Assembly: GCF_963675165.1 (NCBI RefSeq)
Contig: NC_087389.1
Coordinates: 3,842,830 to 3,906,829 of the forward strand
DNA: 64,000 nt
Origin: Halichondria panicea
Taxonomy: Eukaryota; Porifera; Demospongiae; Suberitida; Halichondriidae
Direction of reading: 5' to 3'
Numbering within the stretch: the stretch's first letter is position 1; the number at the start of each line of letters is the position of its first letter. Made by a program: the position numbers and the translations under genes. Below the pieces are notes generated by a model. That model was not told the origin of the DNA. It searched no databases and saw only the letters and a program-made list of their open reading frames with translations. This document shows positions 28,393 through 54,720 of the stretch, piece after piece.

Positions 28393-30123
28393 ATGGGGAT
28401 ACCAAAGCTAACTTCCTACATCAAGAAGACAGATCTTATTGTGCAAACAAATATCAGGAATATGTCAAGTATTGTCATTGATGGCTATGCTTTGTGCTAT
28501 AAGCTTCATCTTGGAGTTGAAAGTGGAGATTACTGTCAATTTTATGAAAAGGTTACCACTTTTCTTTCAGGCTTGAATCGTGAAATAGAAGTGTATGTTG
28601 TCATAGATGGTGTTGACTACGAAAATAGAAAAATGGAAACCGACAGACGTAGAGATGTACAACGTCTTCAGAAATTGTGGCGGGTTGATTCTCGAGTCGA
28701 AGAGCTTTCACCTTACGAGATTGTTATCTCTTTCATGGCCAAGACCGTGTTTATGGATGCTGTTTGTGATTCCTCAGTGAAATACTTCGTCGCTGATGGT
28801 GAAGCAGATCGGGACGTCGTCTCTCTTGCAAATCATCTTCGTTGCCCTGTATTTGGCTCTGATTCCGACTACTTCATTTTCAACATTGAAGGTGGGTACA
28901 TTCCCATTGATGATGGTAGAGGTGGAGTAACAAATCTGCATGGAGTAGTGCCTTGCTTTAATTATCATTCATTTGATTCTGCCTACAACCTCAGCTCTGA
29001 TGCTCGTCTTCTGATACCCTATTGTGTTGGAAATGATTTTCATGGTTCCAACGCTCTCCCTGAATTACAGATTGAACAAGATTCTTCGGTAGGAAATGTT
29101 GTCTCGAAACTTGCAGGTAGAGTGAATTTTGATGATTTCCAGAACAGAGTTGCAGAAGATTACAAGTTTTATCGTGTAGATCCTCACTCGTTTGAAGAAT
29201 TATCTCAGTCTAGGTTTTTAAGTGGTTTTAACCCCTTAGTCCCTGAGTGGGTCGTAATGCAATTTAAAGTAGGCCAGTTCTCGCACATTTCAATGAGATT
29301 TCTTGCAAGCAAGGATACTAAAACCTGGAAGTACACTATAGCCATCGAAGATGTGACTAAAGAATCCGCTTCAGAGGTGACGAATACTGTCTTTCCGTAC
29401 ATTGCTGGTGCACTGCTCAGCCTTGAAAAATGCCAAACTCCTCCTGTACGAGTTTACCGCAAGCCAAAGTCATTTGAGTTTGAAGCCAATGAAGTTGCTC
29501 TGTCAGATAGGCACAGGAATATTCTTGGCTCGTTTAACTTGCTGAATATCCGAGATTGTCCCTCGGAAGTTCGTGAGATGATCCTTTTACAAGTCTTCCA
29601 CTGCAAGTCTGTGTGTAAGACGCTACGGAAAATTCCAGACGAGTTGAAGTTAGCAGTAGTTGCTAGCAGATGTTGGTTAAAGAGCGTCATTCACAGCATT
29701 GATCATCAATTCAAGGCTTTCATTCTTGCACTAGTTTTCTGCTTTCACACGTGCTATTCTAGATCAGAGTTTCAAATTCCCCTTATCTTGAATCAAATGG
29801 GACGCCCTCGCAGGATCCACCACTTAGCTCAGTGGGAACGTATGATGCATCTAGTGATTGATTTTAATCAAATCCTCGGCTCTCCTTTTCCCTACACGAG
29901 TCTTGGTCATCTGTTTTCTACGACAGTATTTCTGAATTTTTTTACGAGCCAACCCGACTTTCTCTACTCTAAACTTGACGAAGAAGGTAGAGATATGTAC
30001 GATGCAATAACGAAAAAACTACTCCCTGGCGCACCAGTTGAACCTGTTCGTCAAGCCCAAGTTGTACGTGCTCCCAGACCGCAAGCAATTGTAACTCAGA
30101 ATAGGTTTGCTCAGCTGTCTTAG
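28393..30123 (+). CDS. Asteroid-like XPG/FEN1-family nuclease (third gene)
   Basis: Intronless gene of 576 residues beginning MGIPKL at 28,393 (the frame opens from a TTG four codons earlier). The acidic active site is complete: D30, D72, E137, D139, D157, D159 (SDSDYF) and D214 (VGNDFHG). The C-terminal family block reads HHLAQWERMMHL, then FPYTSLGHLFS. By eye it is closer to cassette gene 1 and to the cassette pseudogene than to cassette gene 2. It is outside the duplicated cassette and no second copy is visible, but the inverted fragment at 32,125 descends from the related pseudogene. Confidence 0.85.
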   Translation: MGIPKLTSYIKKTDLIVQTNIRNMSSIVIDGYALCYKLHLGVESGDYCQFYEKVTTFLSGLNREIEVYVVIDGVDYENRKMETDRRRDVQRLQKLWRVDSRVEELSPYEIVISFMAKTVFMDAVCDSSVKYFVADGEADRDVVSLANHLRCPVFGSDSDYFIFNIEGGYIPIDDGRGGVTNLHGVVPCFNYHSFDSAYNLSSDARLLIPYCVGNDFHGSNALPELQIEQDSSVGNVVSKLAGRVNFDDFQNRVAEDYKFYRVDPHSFEELSQSRFLSGFNPLVPEWVVMQFKVGQFSHISMRFLASKDTKTWKYTIAIEDVTKESASEVTNTVFPYIAGALLSLEKCQTPPVRVYRKPKSFEFEANEVALSDRHRNILGSFNLLNIRDCPSEVREMILLQVFHCKSVCKTLRKIPDELKLAVVASRCWLKSVIHSIDHQFKAFILALVFCFHTCYSRSEFQIPLILNQMGRPRRIHHLAQWERMMHLVIDFNQILGSPFPYTSLGHLFSTTVFLNFFTSQPDFLYSKLDEEGRDMYDAITKKLLPGAPVEPVRQAQVVRAPRPQAIVTQNRFAQLS

Positions 30124-40434: not shown

Positions 40435-40610
40435 TGGGCAAAATCTCCTTAAAATCTTAAAATCTCGAAAAATCATCTTAAAATCTTAAAATCTCGCAAA
40501 ATCTCCTTAAAATCTTAAAATCTCGCAAAATCTCCTTAAAATCTTAAAATCTCGCAAAATCTCTTTAAAATCTTAAAATCTCGCAAAATCTCTTAAAATC
40601 TCTCCCTAAA
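40435..40610. repeat. 29-bp minisatellite
   Basis: About five units of a 29-base repeat built from TTAAAATCTTAAAATCTCGC with minor variants, decaying at its right end. The flanking CGAGGGGTCCGCCAC is inverted near 42,905-42,925. Confidence 0.9.
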
Positions 40611-41376
40611 ATCCGTAATCTATGTTTCCATCTCCATAAATCTTGGTTACAGCATGCAGCTGCAGAGTGTTGCTCGAGAGCTAGAGCCCACTGAATAGTA
40701 TATTACTGTCATTGCTGTTTCCTCTACTACAACTGCACTGTAAGTCGAGTAAACTTACTAGCAATGGTGTATGGACTGGTGTAAATCTAGCTCTAAAAGT
40801 AATGTAGGATGCAGTTTATTTGCATATAATTATTATTATTGCTAAAATAGTTGATACAATTGCAGGAGTTTACTGTTGCACAGCTATAGGTTGTCTTTAT
40901 CACTGGATCCTCCTCCTCCGTCTGATCCATACAATAAGTAAGCTAAACTATAATTATGCAGTGTTCTTTGTTGAACTGACTGCATATTCATGCTGTAGTC
41001 CGGACCAGTTGAGCTACATTCAACTCTTTGGAACATCTTTACTAATAGACGTACATCTGATCGCAATATAGTGGGTAAGATGAACTATTAAAAAGTATTC
41101 TGTTATTGATTGAAACATTTGTGCGTATGCATGCATGCAGGTACAGTATATATGCACATTCAAGCTTGTCTCTGCTACTACCTCAACTATATACGTACTT
41201 GAGTACTACTCGTCAGCTTTGTTTACATTCTGCATTGCCAAGAATTAAGTGGTAAGTTGCACATGCAGTGGTGTATATAACTAATCGTTGTGTTTATGAC
41301 TGTATAATTATAATAATTATATAGATCATGGCATCTGAGTTGACAACCAGGACAAATTAAGGAAGAAATTGATTTT
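40611..41376. other. Gene-free lead-in to the Ulp1-PHD pseudogene
   Basis: No clear exon. A MASEL-like start at 41,328 is followed at once by a stop. TGCATGCATG and AT-rich microsatellites are present. Confidence 0.4.
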
Positions 41377-42382
41377 TTGTCTCTGATGCGTGAGAAACTC
41401 CCAACTTATGTGGTGAACTGCATGCTTGCATCTGGTTTTGATGTTCCTGAGGTTGTATGCTCAATGGATGTTACTGACAAGCCTGGAAACTCGGACAAAA
41501 ATGGTGGTACCAAAGAATGTGAATGTTTTATAAACAGTTCGACAGTAACCATCGACACAAGCACAAATTCTGATATTACTATCATTTCAGACTCAAGTGA
41601 TTCATCCGAGTCAAGAAAATTGATCATTTTCATCTCTACCACCAAGACCACAGTATTCTGCTAAGCCATAATGCCTGGTTGAACGACAATCATGTAAATT
41701 GTGCCCAATACTTGCTAAAAAAGCAATTCACTCATCTGCATGGCCTACGGTGCTCTGTGTTACAACAGTCGCAATATATCAGTCCTCTCTCACAGGAGTC
41801 TCTACAAATTTTGCACGTTTCTAGCAACCATTGGATAGCTCTGTCTACACTTCAGTGCAGTACCACAAATTTGATTCCCACTGCATGTCTATATACGACT
41901 CATTGTGTAGGGGAATAAGCATGGACACTCAAACACTTTTGGCCAAGTTTCTAGCAAATGGAACAAGAGACTCAGAGCAACAACTTTCCGTCGCTGTAGC
42001 AAATGTGGCACAACAATCAGGCGCTTCAGACTGTGGATTGTTTGCTATCGCTTTCATTACGCATTTAGCACATAGCCTAAACCCCTGCTACTGCAATTTC
42101 AAACAAAATGCAATGAGAGAGCATTTCTTGAAATGCATTGACCAAGCAACCATGACACCCTTTCCGACTAACTCACAAAGAACAGCCAGATTAGCGATAA
42201 CAAAAGAAATAGTGGAGATTCAATTGTATTGCTATTGTAGACTGCCTGATAATGGCTCAAAAATGGTTGAGTGTGAGAGCAGCAGGTGTAAACTGGGAGG
42301 CTGGTTTCACCTCAAGTGTGTCAATGCTTTCGAAGTGAAGAAAAACAATAAATAGATCTGTAACAATTGTAGAGGAGTATAA
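41377..42382 (+). pseudogene. Ulp1/C48-type protease with C-terminal PHD finger, decayed
   Basis: A serine-rich leader at 41,377-41,640 is followed, after a frame change, by SHNAWLNDNHVNCAQYL and the catalytic-histidine block SNHWIAL (41,829-41,845). After another frame change come YDSLCRG (aspartate) and QQSGASDCGLFA (glutamine and catalytic cysteine, about 42,013-42,050). A PHD finger follows: CYCRLP, MVECES, CKLGGWFHLKCV. The frame stops at TAG 42,353-42,355, where PHD fingers have tryptophan, and the final ICNNC lies just beyond it. Ulp1 enzymes cleave SUMO-like modifiers; Ulp1-PHD fusions are often transposon-associated in animals. At least two frameshifts and one nonsense change make function unlikely. 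Confidence 0.7.
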
Positions 42383-42716: not shown

Positions 42717-42880
42717 CCTTGAAATCTTCTGAAATCTTTTGAAATCTTCTGAAATCTTCTAAAATCTTTTGAAATCTCTAAAATCATTGAAATCTTCCAA
42801 AATCTTCTGAAATCTCTAAAATCTTCGAAATCTCTGAAATCTGTAAAATCTTGTAAAATCTCCTGAATCTCGAGATTTTA
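42717..42880. repeat. GAAATCTTCT short tandem repeat array
   Basis: Imperfect 10-11-base units (GAAATCTTCT, GAAATCTTTT) in the same strand sense as the 40,435 array, placed on the other side of the Ulp1-PHD remnant. Confidence 0.8.
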
Positions 42881-43956
42881 AAATCCCGTACACAAATTTT
42901 CATAGTGTCGGACCCCTCGTGCGACACCCAGGAGCTCAGCAATTTTCTGACCTCTAAAAGTAGCGACAGCTGCGTTGACAATTATTTTTTAATGTCGCGT
43001 TCTTAAATAGAGGTAAATGTAGATCTAGCCACTCCCTAGCCTCGATTGTAGCCCACTGGAGTCCTGAAATCGAGGCAAGTAGACTCTGTAAAGTTACCTC
43101 CAATTAGATGCGACCCTCTAAATATGCGACACCAGGACTTCAATATAATTTTTCAACCTCCAAAAGGTGCGACCTCCGGCAATTTTCTTATGAGCGCACG
43201 TGATAAAACCTGCCGGTGGATGACGCGCGTCCAACCTCCTCTGGTAAATGTACTATACAGAGGAGAGGAATGCCAGTGTCAAAAGGTCACTAATTAAAAC
43301 ACCATGTTTTACATGTAAAACCAAAACTGAGTTTACCCTCGCGCCCCTGAGTTTATACACCACCAATAGCTTGATCCTCTTTATAATCACAACAGAAATC
43401 GGTTGAGCTATCGCGCCCCAGAGGAATCAGCTTGAGAGAGGAGATCCAGGATTTAATTGCAACCTTTGACCTTTTATTGCATTCTTCTAAACCACAAGAT
43501 ATGGAAAATAGCCTGCCGTGGCTAGAGAATAAATTTTGATATACTGGCTTGCTGCACTGGATAGATCTAGGTGTATAGTAAGCTTTCCAAGCAGGCAACA
43601 GCAAAGAACAGAAGCGCTAAGCTGCTATATGCAGCAAAGGTCAAGAACCCAGAACAAGAATGTTTAATCCTTCATTAAACGTGACCCTATTGACCCTGGC
43701 ATTCCTCCTCTGACTTTACATGTACTAGGTCTAGTCAGAGTAGTCTTGTCTAGATCTAGTCTACGTCTGTGTTGGACACTGAGGTTAGTTACTATATCAA
43801 TGATGTATGTATAGAGTGCATTGTTTACATTTATACACATACAGTAGTCATAAAGTCGTAAACAATTGATTGCAAATTGCAAGGACGGCACTAAGAGTGT
43901 TCACCACTTTACGAGTTGCTGCTCCAAGACATCTGCTTTTGAGAGAGCGGAGGAGC
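42881..43956. other. Gene-free upstream region of selenoprotein O
   Basis: Contains interspersed repeat pieces with GCGACCC...AAATATGCGACACC motifs (42,920 and 43,105-43,190), also present at about 40,375. No gene is seen. Directly before the SelO ATG an open arginine-rich frame runs back to a stop at 43,867. Confidence 0.5.
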
Positions 43957-50395
<6,439 letters not shown>

Positions 50396-50573
50396 ATCCT
50401 GCCACATCAGGTGAAACGTGAAACATGCGTGTGTTACGTATTTAGGTTAACACGGTCATTATTTAGCATAATTTTTGCAGTGTGCTGTGCTGTTGAAGCA
50501 GAAATGCGAACAGTCAAACAAGAAATCACAAGTCTTTTTGAGACAGTATAAAGAACTGCATTTGTAAAGACTT

Positions 50574-50630
50574 GTTTATGACGGAATCGCTGTAAATCCC
50601 GCATAGGGAGCAGCTTTTCTTGAAAGTTCT
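50574..50630 (+). promoter_or_regulatory. Candidate type II SECIS element in the SelO 3' UTR
   Basis: ATGA at 50,578-50,581 is followed by an imperfect helix: CGGAATCGCTGT (50,582-50,593) against GCAGCTTTTCTT (50,610-50,621), with three mismatches. AAA at 50,594-50,596 follows, then a small extra stem TCCC/GGGA (50,597-50,600 with 50,606-50,609) and TGAA at 50,621-50,624, fitting the KGAW side of the SECIS quartet. This is the form II layout. It starts 183 nt after the stop codon. The lower helix is weak by eye. No folding was computed. Confidence 0.6.
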
Positions 50631-50789
50631 TGTTTGTCTGTATAATTATAAACGTATACTTTTTATGCAAGTGTACAGTGTGTAATATAAACTGTTATCT
50701 GTTTGTCATACCGTGTCATCAAAATTAAAAGTAATTTAGACCAACTGCTTGTTTTTGAACAGAAACTAAAACAATTGTGCATGCACCGT

Positions 50790-51003
50790 ACAGTTATGAT
50801 AGCTGGAGATTTGTATGCTATGCTGGTTATAATGTTTTGTTTATGTTGCAACATAATTATGAAATTGTTTTACAGTTATGATAGCAGCTGGAGATTTGTA
50901 TGCCATGGGTTAATAATTAGTGTTTTGTTGATGTTGCAACATATACAGTTATGATAGCTGGAGATTTGTATGCTGTGCTGGTTAATAAGTATTTGCAACA
51001 TGT
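50790..51003. repeat. Three-unit tandem repeat upstream of the membrane-protein gene
   Basis: Units of about 73-82 bases begin ACAGTTATGATAGCTGGAGA at 50,790, 50,872 and 50,945, each with TTTGTATGC and (except a shortened third) a TTGCAACAT end. They lie 45-260 bases before the ATG at 51,049. Confidence 0.85.
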
Positions 51004-51048: not shown

Positions 51049-54000
51049 ATGAAGTTGCATGGCTATAGCATCAGTTCCACTATGACCCTCACACTGCTTT
51101 ATGCGTGTGCAACTCTTCAAGGCCTGCCTCTAGCTACTGCTGGTAATTCTGAACAAGCTAATAGTACCACTTATTATGTGCGAGGAAAAGACACAAACTC
51201 GTCATTGTGCCCTGCTGACGTTGAAATCGGCCATTGTCAGACACTTGATTTCTACGCTGAAAATGGACGTTTTACGAGCCATCGTTCTTTCGTCTTTTTA
51301 AGTGGAACACACCAACTATCTCAAGAAGTTATTCTTAGAGGCATTACAGGATTATCAATGGTTGGAGTTCAAGGTTCCACTAACTGCTCAATAATTTGTA
51401 CCACTGCCTCAGCCGGTTTTGCTTTTTTTGACGTCACATTTCTGCATATCAGTGACTTAAATATCCACAATTGTGGTATACACAAACAAGACTTTCAACT
51501 AGCTGCAGCTTTGATTATTAAGGACTCAACTAATGCATCTCTTAACAGATTAGTAGTCACAAACACGACGGGAGGCTATGGCCTCATAACAATCAACACA
51601 CACGACCTTCTCTCTATCACCAACTCAATATTTGCTTACAATAAAAATGACTCACACTGGGAAGGAGGGAACACGAGGATAATCTTTAGCGTTTGCGAAG
51701 ATTTTGAGCCCAAGTTTGTTGTCATCAAAAACACTACTTTTCATCATGGGTACCAGTATTATAGGGTGTTCCGAGAAGTTGGCTGCGGAGGGTTGACGAT
51801 TGAATTCAACTGTTACAACGTTAAAGTGAGCGTAGAGGATAGTGAGGCAAGCTACAACACAGCATATTTCGGAGGCAATATTGATGTTGTGTTTGGACTG
51901 CTAACAAACAATTCCTTGCGGTTACATAATGTTACAAGCACACACGGGATGGGTGGTCGGGGGACAGGCCTTTTCATAACCATCAAACAAAATGTAGGTA
52001 TAGATGATGAGTACTCATGTGATACGCATATGTGCTCTGCTATGGAAAACGTTATCTTGAATTTTTCAAATCTACATTTCAATCGAAACCAAAAGTCAGC
52101 TTTTATAATTGAGGATAATTCCTACCCCGGTACAGTGTGCGTGAATCAGTATGCTGTGATTAAAGATTCGGTTTTCTTGGAGAACTCCAGTCCTGCTTGG
52201 TGGGGCGGCTCGGCTGTCCGTTTAGCTTACAGCCCATTGTCTCCGGCTGTTAAAGATTTTGCAATACTTTATACGACTTTTACAAACTGCACTTTCTCGG
52301 GACACTTTAAAAATAGCCATAGAATGGATTTAATCGCTTCTGTTATGTATTTCGAACTGGTAAAGAATGTGACGATTGAGAACTGTTCAATTGGCAACAA
52401 CAACATGTCGGGCATTCAAGCATACTCAAGTAATGTGCACTTCAAAGGAAGTACCAACATTTTTAGAAATACAAACTACTATGGAGGTGGACTGCTACTA
52501 CTGCAAAATTCATTCATGTTCATGAGTTTAGGCACGACAATCAATTTTTGTGATAATCATGCAGTAACAGTGGGAGGAGCGCTATTTTCTGACTTTGATC
52601 TTCAAATCCCAACAAAATCCCCATGCTTTTACCAGCTCGATATTTCTGGACCAAGTGCGAATAACAATTTGATTAGTACCATAAAAGTGAACTTTCAGAA
52701 CAATACATCTGGACTAGCAGGATCAGCTATATTTGGGGGCAGAATAAATTCTTGTTACTCCTACAGACACAGTTATGTCAGCAAACTTTTCGAAAAGGTT
52801 TTCAAAATAAACAACACCGTGAATGATCCATCAGCCATTACTTCAGATCCCTATTATGTCTGCTTTTGCATAGATGAAAGCAGACTCCCAAATTGCGCTG
52901 TTGGTTCTCACAATGTCAGCGTGTTTCCTGGCGACAATTTCCAAGTCTCGGCTGCCACTGTTGGTAGCAGTAGAGAAGGTACTATCCCAGGTGTTGTACA
53001 CTCACAGTTCATCAAGTCATACCAAAATACGTCATTCGGTTATCTTCAAGCAGCACAGAACAGTGTAGGAAGATACTGCAGTACTCTTAATTTTACCATA
53101 TATTCTTTAGACCCGTCCGTGAGCTTTTATCTATCAACTGACAAATTATCTTTTTTCTCGCTATTTGTTTTCGACTCCAAAATTGTCACTGTTACTTTTC
53201 TTGATTGTCCACCCGGATTTGAAGTCCATTTTTCTTCTGGAAGACCCAAATGTGATTGCGAAAAACAACTCCAAATTCATGACGACAGTATTCAGTGTTT
53301 GATTACGAGCCAAGTGATTGTACCACCTCCAGGCTCCTGGGTAGGCTACTACAACACTTCCACCCCGGATACGGTCGTCAGGGGGGCACTCTTTCATCGA
53401 TATTGCCCCTACAATTACTGTCACTCAAATCAGTCGTACATTTCTCTCAATAATACCGACATGCAGTGCTCCTCCAACAGATCTGGGATAATGTGTGGAG
53501 AGTGTCAAAAAGGTCTCAGTCTCACCCTTGGCAGAAATAAGTGTGTAAAATGCTCGAGTATTAGCCTGCTATTCATTATTGTGTTCGCCTTAGCTGGGGT
53601 TGCATTAGTTGTGCTGTTGTTTGTGTTGAGGCTTACGGTAACAGAAGGAAGTATTAATGGATTAATATTTTACATGAATGTCTTGAAGATGAACCAAGCA
53701 CTTCTTCTGCCAGGAAACGAAACAAATTTTCTGAGTGTGTTTACTGCATGGATGAATTTGGATCTGGGAATCGATTTATGCTTTTATGATGGAATGGACT
53801 CGATAGCAAAAACATTCTTACAGTTCGTTTTCCCTGCATACATATGGTTGCTTGTTATTTTGGTGATAGTTCTCGCAAAAAGGTTTCGATTCATTTCAAA
53901 CTTAGTTGGACAAAGAGCAGTTCAAGTTCTAGCCACTCTGTTGCTTCTCTCTTATACAAAACTTCAAAGAGTGATTGTTACATCTCTCACGTATACCACT

Positions 54001-54720
54001 TTGTTATATCCCGAGGGCTCAATCCATTATGCTTGGTTGTACGATGGAAATATAAACTACCTTGAAGGGAGGCACATTGCTCTGTTTGTGGCAGCTATTG
54101 TTTGTTTTATTTTGTTGATTTTACCGTATACGATTCTGCTAACATTCTTCAAATTCTTTCAAGCTTGCTCTGATAAGAAACTGATGTCATGGATGAACAA
54201 TCTTAAACCAGTCATCGATGCATACGCTGGTCCTTATAAGGACAATCTTCGATTCTGGACGGGTTTCCTGCTCTTTTCTCGAACAGTACTAATTGTTACC
54301 CTTACCCTCAATTGGACGGCGTCACCAGACTACAACCTTTTTGCAGCAGCTCTGGAAGCCATCATCCTCATCATGATTGTAGGCTCTCTTGGTGGCATTT
54401 ACAAATATTCGCTTTACAACTTCCTCGAAACTTTTTGTTATTTCAATGTAGCTGCTGTGGCTTTGATTCTGCTTTATAACAAAGAGCATCAATACGCTAT
54501 CCTAAATGGATCGATGGGTGTTTTATTTTTCATATTTTTAGTAGTTATTTTCATCCATTTATTCAAGTACACCCCAATTCGTTTGTGTGTTTCCTGCATT
54601 AGGAGGAGGTTTACTGAAGATGAAGCCAACAGAGGAAACGATGAAGACTTATTATTTGATGATCGATATGAAGCCGTTGTGGAGTCTGATGAGAATGAAC
54701 TCAAAGACACTGTTGGTTGA
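51049..54720 (+). CDS. Large secretory-pathway protein: beta-helix-like ectodomain, Cys-rich module, about 8 membrane segments
   Basis: Intronless, 1,223 residues. A signal peptide is likely at residues 1-32 (TMTLTLLYACATLQGLPLA). Residues about 40-600 are rich in Asn-Cys-Ser/Thr turns with recurrent patterns such as NVTIENCSIGNN and NTTF, typical of right-handed parallel beta-helix (PbH1) repeats, and have many N-glycosylation sites. Residues about 715-835 are cysteine-rich, ending CGECQKGLSLTLGRNKCVKC. Hydrophobic segments lie near residues 838-860, 923-945, 957-975, 1008-1035, 1068-1089, 1098-1119, 1128-1145 and 1155-1174, followed by an acidic cytosolic tail. I do not recognise a named family; a surface receptor or adhesion role is inference. 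A broken copy of residues about 710-990 lies at 59,971. Confidence 0.85.
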   Translation: MKLHGYSISSTMTLTLLYACATLQGLPLATAGNSEQANSTTYYVRGKDTNSSLCPADVEIGHCQTLDFYAENGRFTSHRSFVFLSGTHQLSQEVILRGITGLSMVGVQGSTNCSIICTTASAGFAFFDVTFLHISDLNIHNCGIHKQDFQLAAALIIKDSTNASLNRLVVTNTTGGYGLITINTHDLLSITNSIFAYNKNDSHWEGGNTRIIFSVCEDFEPKFVVIKNTTFHHGYQYYRVFREVGCGGLTIEFNCYNVKVSVEDSEASYNTAYFGGNIDVVFGLLTNNSLRLHNVTSTHGMGGRGTGLFITIKQNVGIDDEYSCDTHMCSAMENVILNFSNLHFNRNQKSAFIIEDNSYPGTVCVNQYAVIKDSVFLENSSPAWWGGSAVRLAYSPLSPAVKDFAILYTTFTNCTFSGHFKNSHRMDLIASVMYFELVKNVTIENCSIGNNNMSGIQAYSSNVHFKGSTNIFRNTNYYGGGLLLLQNSFMFMSLGTTINFCDNHAVTVGGALFSDFDLQIPTKSPCFYQLDISGPSANNNLISTIKVNFQNNTSGLAGSAIFGGRINSCYSYRHSYVSKLFEKVFKINNTVNDPSAITSDPYYVCFCIDESRLPNCAVGSHNVSVFPGDNFQVSAATVGSSREGTIPGVVHSQFIKSYQNTSFGYLQAAQNSVGRYCSTLNFTIYSLDPSVSFYLSTDKLSFFSLFVFDSKIVTVTFLDCPPGFEVHFSSGRPKCDCEKQLQIHDDSIQCLITSQVIVPPPGSWVGYYNTSTPDTVVRGALFHRYCPYNYCHSNQSYISLNNTDMQCSSNRSGIMCGECQKGLSLTLGRNKCVKCSSISLLFIIVFALAGVALVVLLFVLRLTVTEGSINGLIFYMNVLKMNQALLLPGNETNFLSVFTAWMNLDLGIDLCFYDGMDSIAKTFLQFVFPAYIWLLVILVIVLAKRFRFISNLVGQRAVQVLATLLLLSYTKLQRVIVTSLTYTTLLYPEGSIHYAWLYDGNINYLEGRHIALFVAAIVCFILLILPYTILLTFFKFFQACSDKKLMSWMNNLKPVIDAYAGPYKDNLRFWTGFLLFSRTVLIVTLTLNWTASPDYNLFAAALEAIILIMIVGSLGGIYKYSLYNFLETFCYFNVAAVALILLYNKEHQYAILNGSMGVLFFIFLVVIFIHLFKYTPIRLCVSCIRRRFTEDEANRGNDEDLLFDDRYEAVVESDENELKDTVG

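Follow-up and report, generated by a model that had tools for sequence, protein, structure and literature searches.

The SelO gene of the sponge Halichondria panicea raises the question of whether the TGA found in frame near its 3′ end is an ordinary stop or a codon for selenocysteine (Sec). We examined the locus in a window of 64,000 nucleotides, by which we mean the whole stretch of DNA that was analysed, and followed up the findings made there in the rest of the genome and in prokaryotic genomes.

Gene model and C-terminal tail of SelO

The gene was modelled with 19 coding exons (Table 1). All of its introns begin with GT and end with AG (18/18 donors and 18/18 acceptors), the frame is unbroken to the TGA, and TCT TCG TAA follows directly after it, giving the C-terminus G-T-V-V-T-[TGA]-S-S-TAA. 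The first-pass annotation had described a 19-exon SelO model that stays in phase and ends T-TGA-S-S-TAA, and this description held up. The joined exons encode 631 residues with the TGA counted as Sec. Residues 37-577 of the product match Pfam SelO (PF02696) at 413.6 bits, against a cut-off of 22.8, and the product is also matched by solved SelO/YdiU structures representing 4 distinct sequences, with an E-value of 3.5e-100 for PDB 6eac. The NCBIfam YdiU family scored 511.6 bits, and two narrower SelO models fell below their cut-offs. Residues K85, E108, N225 and D234 (row 1 numbering) are invariant in a 6-row alignment (A1) that includes the window's SelO; we take these columns to be K113, E136, N253 and D262 of Pseudomonas syringae SelO, residues of its nucleotide and metal sites. 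The product probably has a kinase fold and AMPylates proteins.

To ask what stands at the TGA in related proteins, SelO homologs were collected from two sources. SelO relatives were found by tblastn in 97 plasmid records, and five of the 15 listed were used. A prokaryotic genome scan matched at least 592 stretches, 590 of them relatives, and the best 80 SelO loci by similarity to a Methylococcus SelO were compared, although this is an uneven sample. The third-last residue is Cys in every one of these 80 loci, with the tail reading Cys-Ser-Ser in 76 and Cys-Gly-Thr in 4, and the Sec position pairs with the sole invariant Cys column of alignment A1 (C465 of row 1). An in-frame TGA at the Cys of homologs, which is what a eukaryotic selenoprotein should have, was found against both sets (80/80 and 5/5). 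Prokaryote genomes were also scanned with the window's SelO protein for sponge DNA, which returned 23 pattern stretches and no relative.

Several other features were observed in and around the gene. Directly upstream of the SelO ATG and in frame with it, 43870-43956 forms 29 open codons that include 7 arginines and one acidic residue but no ATG. Judged by its composition, this stretch resembles a mitochondrial leader, and it is possible that it belongs to a missing 5′ exon or to a non-AUG start of SelO. Intron 18 holds a MITE-like element of ~245 bp with inverted ends (49893-50137), and at least 39 further long matches to it were found in the genome at 85-91% identity, some shorter than the element, a count that is a lower bound with 40 of 846 candidates scored. 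On the 5′ side of SelO, overlapping ORF pieces broken over frames occupy 41344-42355; by eye they resemble an Ulp1-type peptidase with a PHD-like tail, and they are perhaps a transposon remnant. Short AAAATCTT-type repeats were seen by eye on both sides of these pieces, at 40440-40620 and 42720-42870.

Table 1. Features of the SelO locus, all on the forward (+) strand, in window positions
Feature	Position	Strand	Basis or remark
SelO gene, 19 coding exons	43957..50395	+	splice sites and frame; Pfam, PDB and NCBIfam matches
SelO exons 1-7	43957-44065, 44268-44499, 44674-44812, 45003-45036, 45218-45329, 45679-45802, 46019-46134	+	
SelO exons 8-14	46308-46411, 46836-46956, 47142-47190, 47325-47359, 47422-47462, 47528-47594, 48137-48220	+	
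SelO exons 15-19	48500-48620, 49021-49088, 49198-49240, 49334-49444, 50210-50395	+	
In-frame TGA, almost certainly read as Sec (third-last residue)	50384..50386	+	frame; Cys in homologs
Predicted enclosing stem (50510-50524/50627-50641, 14 pairs) and side hairpin (50528-50575)	50510..50641	+	fold prediction only
SECIS element, form II, presumed 3′ UTR	50570..50633	+	Rfam RF00031 (SECIS_1), full model 1-64
5′ half of non-Watson-Crick core, ATGAC (A-UGAC)	50578..50582	+	sequence; Rfam AUGA alignment
Helix II	50583-50593/50610-50620	+	9/11 pairs standard
Apical AAA	50594-50596	+	within 50583..50620
Mini-stem TCCC/GGGA	50597-50600/50606-50609	+	form II feature
3′ half of core, TGAA (UGAA)	50621..50624	+	sequence; Rfam alignment
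Candidate poly(A) signals AATATA (50684) and ATTAAA (50724)	50684..50729	+	motif match only; 3′ of SECIS, 5′ of next ORF

The SECIS element and the predicted fold around it

On the same strand as SelO, in its presumed 3′ UTR, Rfam SECIS_1 matched 50570-50633 with 21.6 bits, under its gathering score of 35. Searching 4227 families on both strands of 2.5 kb gave it an E-value of 0.59, from which we calculate a chance of ~1.4e-4 when SECIS_1 is the sole family considered and of ~2e-5 when only one strand of the 650-nt 3′ interval is counted. Across the whole window, every Rfam family stayed under its gathering score. The SECIS core starts 194 nt after the TGA, which is a workable spacing. Here the earlier reading had named ATGA, a paired helix, AAA, a TCCC/GGGA stem and TGAA in SECIS order; all of these were located within 50578-50624, and the covariance model independently recognises the same place, though under its gathering score. 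Folding at 37 °C in five contexts predicted pair probabilities of 0.77-1.0 for helix II (its nine standard pairs) and of 0.99-1.0 for the mini-stem. A figure legend of PMC8659212 describes form 2 SECIS elements by an additional short helix within their apical loop, and the predicted mini-stem provides such a helix in the SelO element. Compared with RF00031 as a family, the element is alike in its full-length match, its AUGA...AAA...UGA core and its mini-stem, but differs in its low score and in its weak canonical helix I, where 2 of five pairs are non-standard in the Rfam alignment.

We then considered how far this match stands out. The genome searched comprised 131.5 Mb in 39 contigs, and with 133 of 1782 first-look candidates scored, SECIS_1 listed three matches at E<=10 (33.6, 31.4 and 21.6 bits), none over the cut-off and the SelO element third with an E-value of 7.4. 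Of 14 prokaryotic control genomes, 4 also gave matches at E<=10 and 0 did over the cut-off, so a SECIS_1 match of such size is no proof alone and it is the position that carries it. In a search at E<=1 the elements of a glutathione peroxidase and of an AhpC/SelL-like gene were listed; the SelO element, in 9.2 kb, was not. Our own SECIS motif scan, which was written after the candidate was seen, found 4 places in 128 kb (both strands), including the SelO element, and the place at 28766 scores higher. As a fold, the 76-nt SECIS is unexceptional (z -1.75), with 13 of 200 shuffles folding as well. A repeat-derived hairpin 3′ of SelO was also considered and rejected, as 50396-50780 has one match in the genome, itself.

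A motif scan found AATAAA absent between 50397 and 51060, which counts against the proposed reading, and the candidate poly(A) signals 3′ of the SECIS (Table 1) are non-canonical. A 22-nt motif in three direct copies (a 50-nt repeat in two) occupies 50789-50993, between SelO and the next ORF. This ORF is a single exon of 1223 aa at 51049-54720, just 3′ of SelO, and by eye its product has a secreted beta-helix-like part and then membrane segments.

In a longer context of 140 nt, the SECIS is predicted to sit in a three-way junction with a free energy of -45.8 kcal/mol (z -4.84, 0/200 shuffles as stable). Folds as stable or better were found in 4 of 1696 stretches of the window at like G+C and in 69 of 3650 overall, a sample that may include the SelO SECIS element itself. 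It is conceivable, though we consider it unlikely, that the SelO SECIS works in a branched form, in which the core would lie in the three-way junction, a strand ~50 nt upstream would supply the 14-pair base stem, and the side hairpin at 50528-50575 would replace the usual 5′ internal loop. Such a form would be a variant of a SECIS-directed reading of the TGA and not exclusive with it. Besides the stability of the 140-nt fold and how few like-G+C stretches match it, the branched form is favoured by the genome holding no second copy of 50510-50641, and by helix II and the mini-stem being kept in every context. With that said, it is a thermodynamic prediction, and when the upstream arm is held unpaired a different base stem forms at -29.1 kcal/mol; in the context 50540-50660 another stem is predicted, with the AUGA bases paired. 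The junction would also consume bases of Rfam's helix I, and the structure could be a neutral one of the 3′ UTR. Long-context folds of the glutathione peroxidase SECIS lose helix II, so such folds can mislead; the AhpC/SelL-like SECIS of this genome shows a long helix I of the ordinary kind. In a paper found by a literature search for "three-way junction" together with SECIS and selenoprotein, the phrase occurs only in a reference title.

Selenocysteine machinery and other putative selenoprotein genes

The first-pass annotation had tied its reading to the presence of SECIS-binding protein 2 (SBP2) and tRNA-Sec in the genome, and both were recovered, the former as an SBP2-like L7Ae domain and the latter with anticodon TCA. 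The tRNA-Sec model gave 9 genome matches at E<=10, 4 of them over the cut-off, but it also matched in all controls (14/14, over the cut-off in 5/14) and is therefore not decisive alone. ARAGORN was run on four of the nine loci and called the best (contig C17, 73.4 bits) tRNA-Sec and the other three tRNA-Ser. For SepSecS, 6 exon matches passed the cut-off, and contig C2 holds all of them, one with an internal TGA (controls 3/14). The fourth domain of eEFSec (eEFSec_4th) had one match, on contig C3, covering 35 of 119 positions with 44.2 bits (controls 0/14). There were 13 genome matches for L7Ae, of which 12 were translated; the one at 6075592 of contig C9 scored 22.3 bits (E 0.01), and when joined with the next exon piece it was nearest to the SECISBP2 of PDB 7zjw (E 1.3e-18), the next hit having an E-value of 0.23. 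The eukaryotic PSTK model had no genome match (0/1) in this exon-by-exon search, where a miss is weak evidence. The machinery thus includes tRNA-Sec and SepSecS, with eEFSec and SBP2 found by one domain each and PSTK not detected.

Other genes of this genome also carry an in-frame TGA at Sec positions. The top SECIS_1 match sits 3′ of a glutathione peroxidase gene (Pfam GSHPx) reading V-N-V-A-S-K-TGA-G-L-A-Q-K-N-Y, and the second sits 3′ of an AhpC/SelL-like gene (Pfam AhpC-TSA_2) reading N-L-S-TGA-G-P-C-N-K-H, which is below the cut-off of the NCBIfam SelL-related model. A SelW-like (Rdx) gene on contig C5 reads C-G-G-TGA-G-Y. Rfam found no SECIS at the SelW-like locus, and the motif scan found three candidates in 9.6 kb, one of them ~60 nt past the apparent last exon. 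The base before the core UGA is U (UUGAU) in the AhpC/SelL-like SECIS (locus L010, 1501-1569, contig C15) and in one SelW-like candidate (locus L128, 7059-7124, minus strand, contig C5), which has a SECIS fold in 100 nt that is lost in 140 nt. PMC3473315 describes A at this place, with G in algae and sponges as the alternative, and a literature search returned no paper that has UUGA as a whole word together with SECIS and selenoprotein.

These results allow the alternatives to SECIS-directed decoding to be weighed. It is very improbable that the TGA is an ordinary stop, with the SelO tail lost and a SECIS-like hairpin arising by chance. The score under the gathering score, the matches in four control genomes and the modest z of the 76-nt fold would all agree with a stop. 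However, a lost tail should drift, and Ser-Ser-TAA is kept exactly where 76 of the 80 homologs have Cys-Ser-Ser; the SECIS shares the strand of SelO, follows the TGA by 194 nt and is one of three listed in 131 Mb; and other genes of the genome also carry TGA in frame at a Sec site. Taken together, the Sec/Cys homology, the retention of Ser-Ser-TAA, the SECIS and the Sec machinery lead us to reject the stop. More improbable still is a bypass of the TGA that needs no SECIS, whether through general readthrough or an alternative last exon, for while the latter is compatible with the locus judged from DNA alone, a SECIS-class hairpin with all core parts is present, as are tRNA-Sec, the SBP2-like L7Ae domain, the eEFSec domain and SepSecS.

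Several independent facts agree and carry the conclusion: the TGA stands at the Cys column, Ser-Ser-TAA is retained behind it, the SECIS has the expected form and strand, and the genome uses Sec. We consider it very likely that the gene is the sponge SELENOO (SelO) and that its product is a true selenoprotein, with Sec inserted at the TGA under direction of the SECIS. The claim of a sponge SelO selenoprotein with a form II SECIS is thereby supported by the SECIS match, the Sec/Cys pairing and the Sec machinery, PSTK being undetected. In the mechanism that we propose, SBP2 bound to the form II element of the presumed 3′ UTR would recruit eEFSec with Sec-tRNA-Sec, the UGA at 50384 would be decoded as selenocysteine, and the TAA would then terminate translation, leaving a Sec-Ser-Ser tail.

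SelO in sponges, other animals and prokaryotes

A sponge Sec-SelO was already tabulated in 2012: Table 1 of PMC3473315 gives one in Amphimedon queenslandica and one in each of five other invertebrates. With the Amphimedon protein, a SelO from a sponge was already classed among the selenoproteins, and the present case is correct, ordinary and expected. The passage of that paper on SECIS cores reports GUGA in 12 of the 21 SECIS detected in Amphimedon, with SelO not among the 12 it names there. The core of the window's SelO SECIS has AUGA. SelO is generally conserved outside ecdysozoa, with Cys replacement in two parasitic flatworms, as stated in PMC3828610.

Vertebrate SELENOO is alike in having a Sec-Ser-Ser tail (Sec667) on a SelO domain, according to PMC13391479, but differs in that the window's ATG-start model is without a clear mitochondrial leader. 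The prokaryotic SelO/YdiU adenylyltransferases (PDB 6eac, 6iii) share the domain and the position of the tail, and differ in having Cys for Sec in 85 of 85 homologs with tails examined; Sec-containing SelO has been reported in certain bacteria, as mentioned in PMC12013277. The same PMC13391479, a commentary on a Cell paper, states that NAD+ hydrolysis by SelO requires the Sec-Ser-Ser tail (residue 667) and that AMPylation does not. The sponge tail, by analogy to the vertebrate protein, would be the part needed for NAD+ cleavage, and an annotation ended at the TGA would lose these three residues.

A branched SECIS, if real, would widen the range of architectures known for SECIS elements of eukaryotes. 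The weak helix I of the SelO element suggests, as do the UUGA-type cores of the AhpC/SelL-like SECIS and one SelW-like candidate, that standard SECIS models may miss the elements of such animals. As for SelO itself, the case fits Sec-SelO as an old animal trait.
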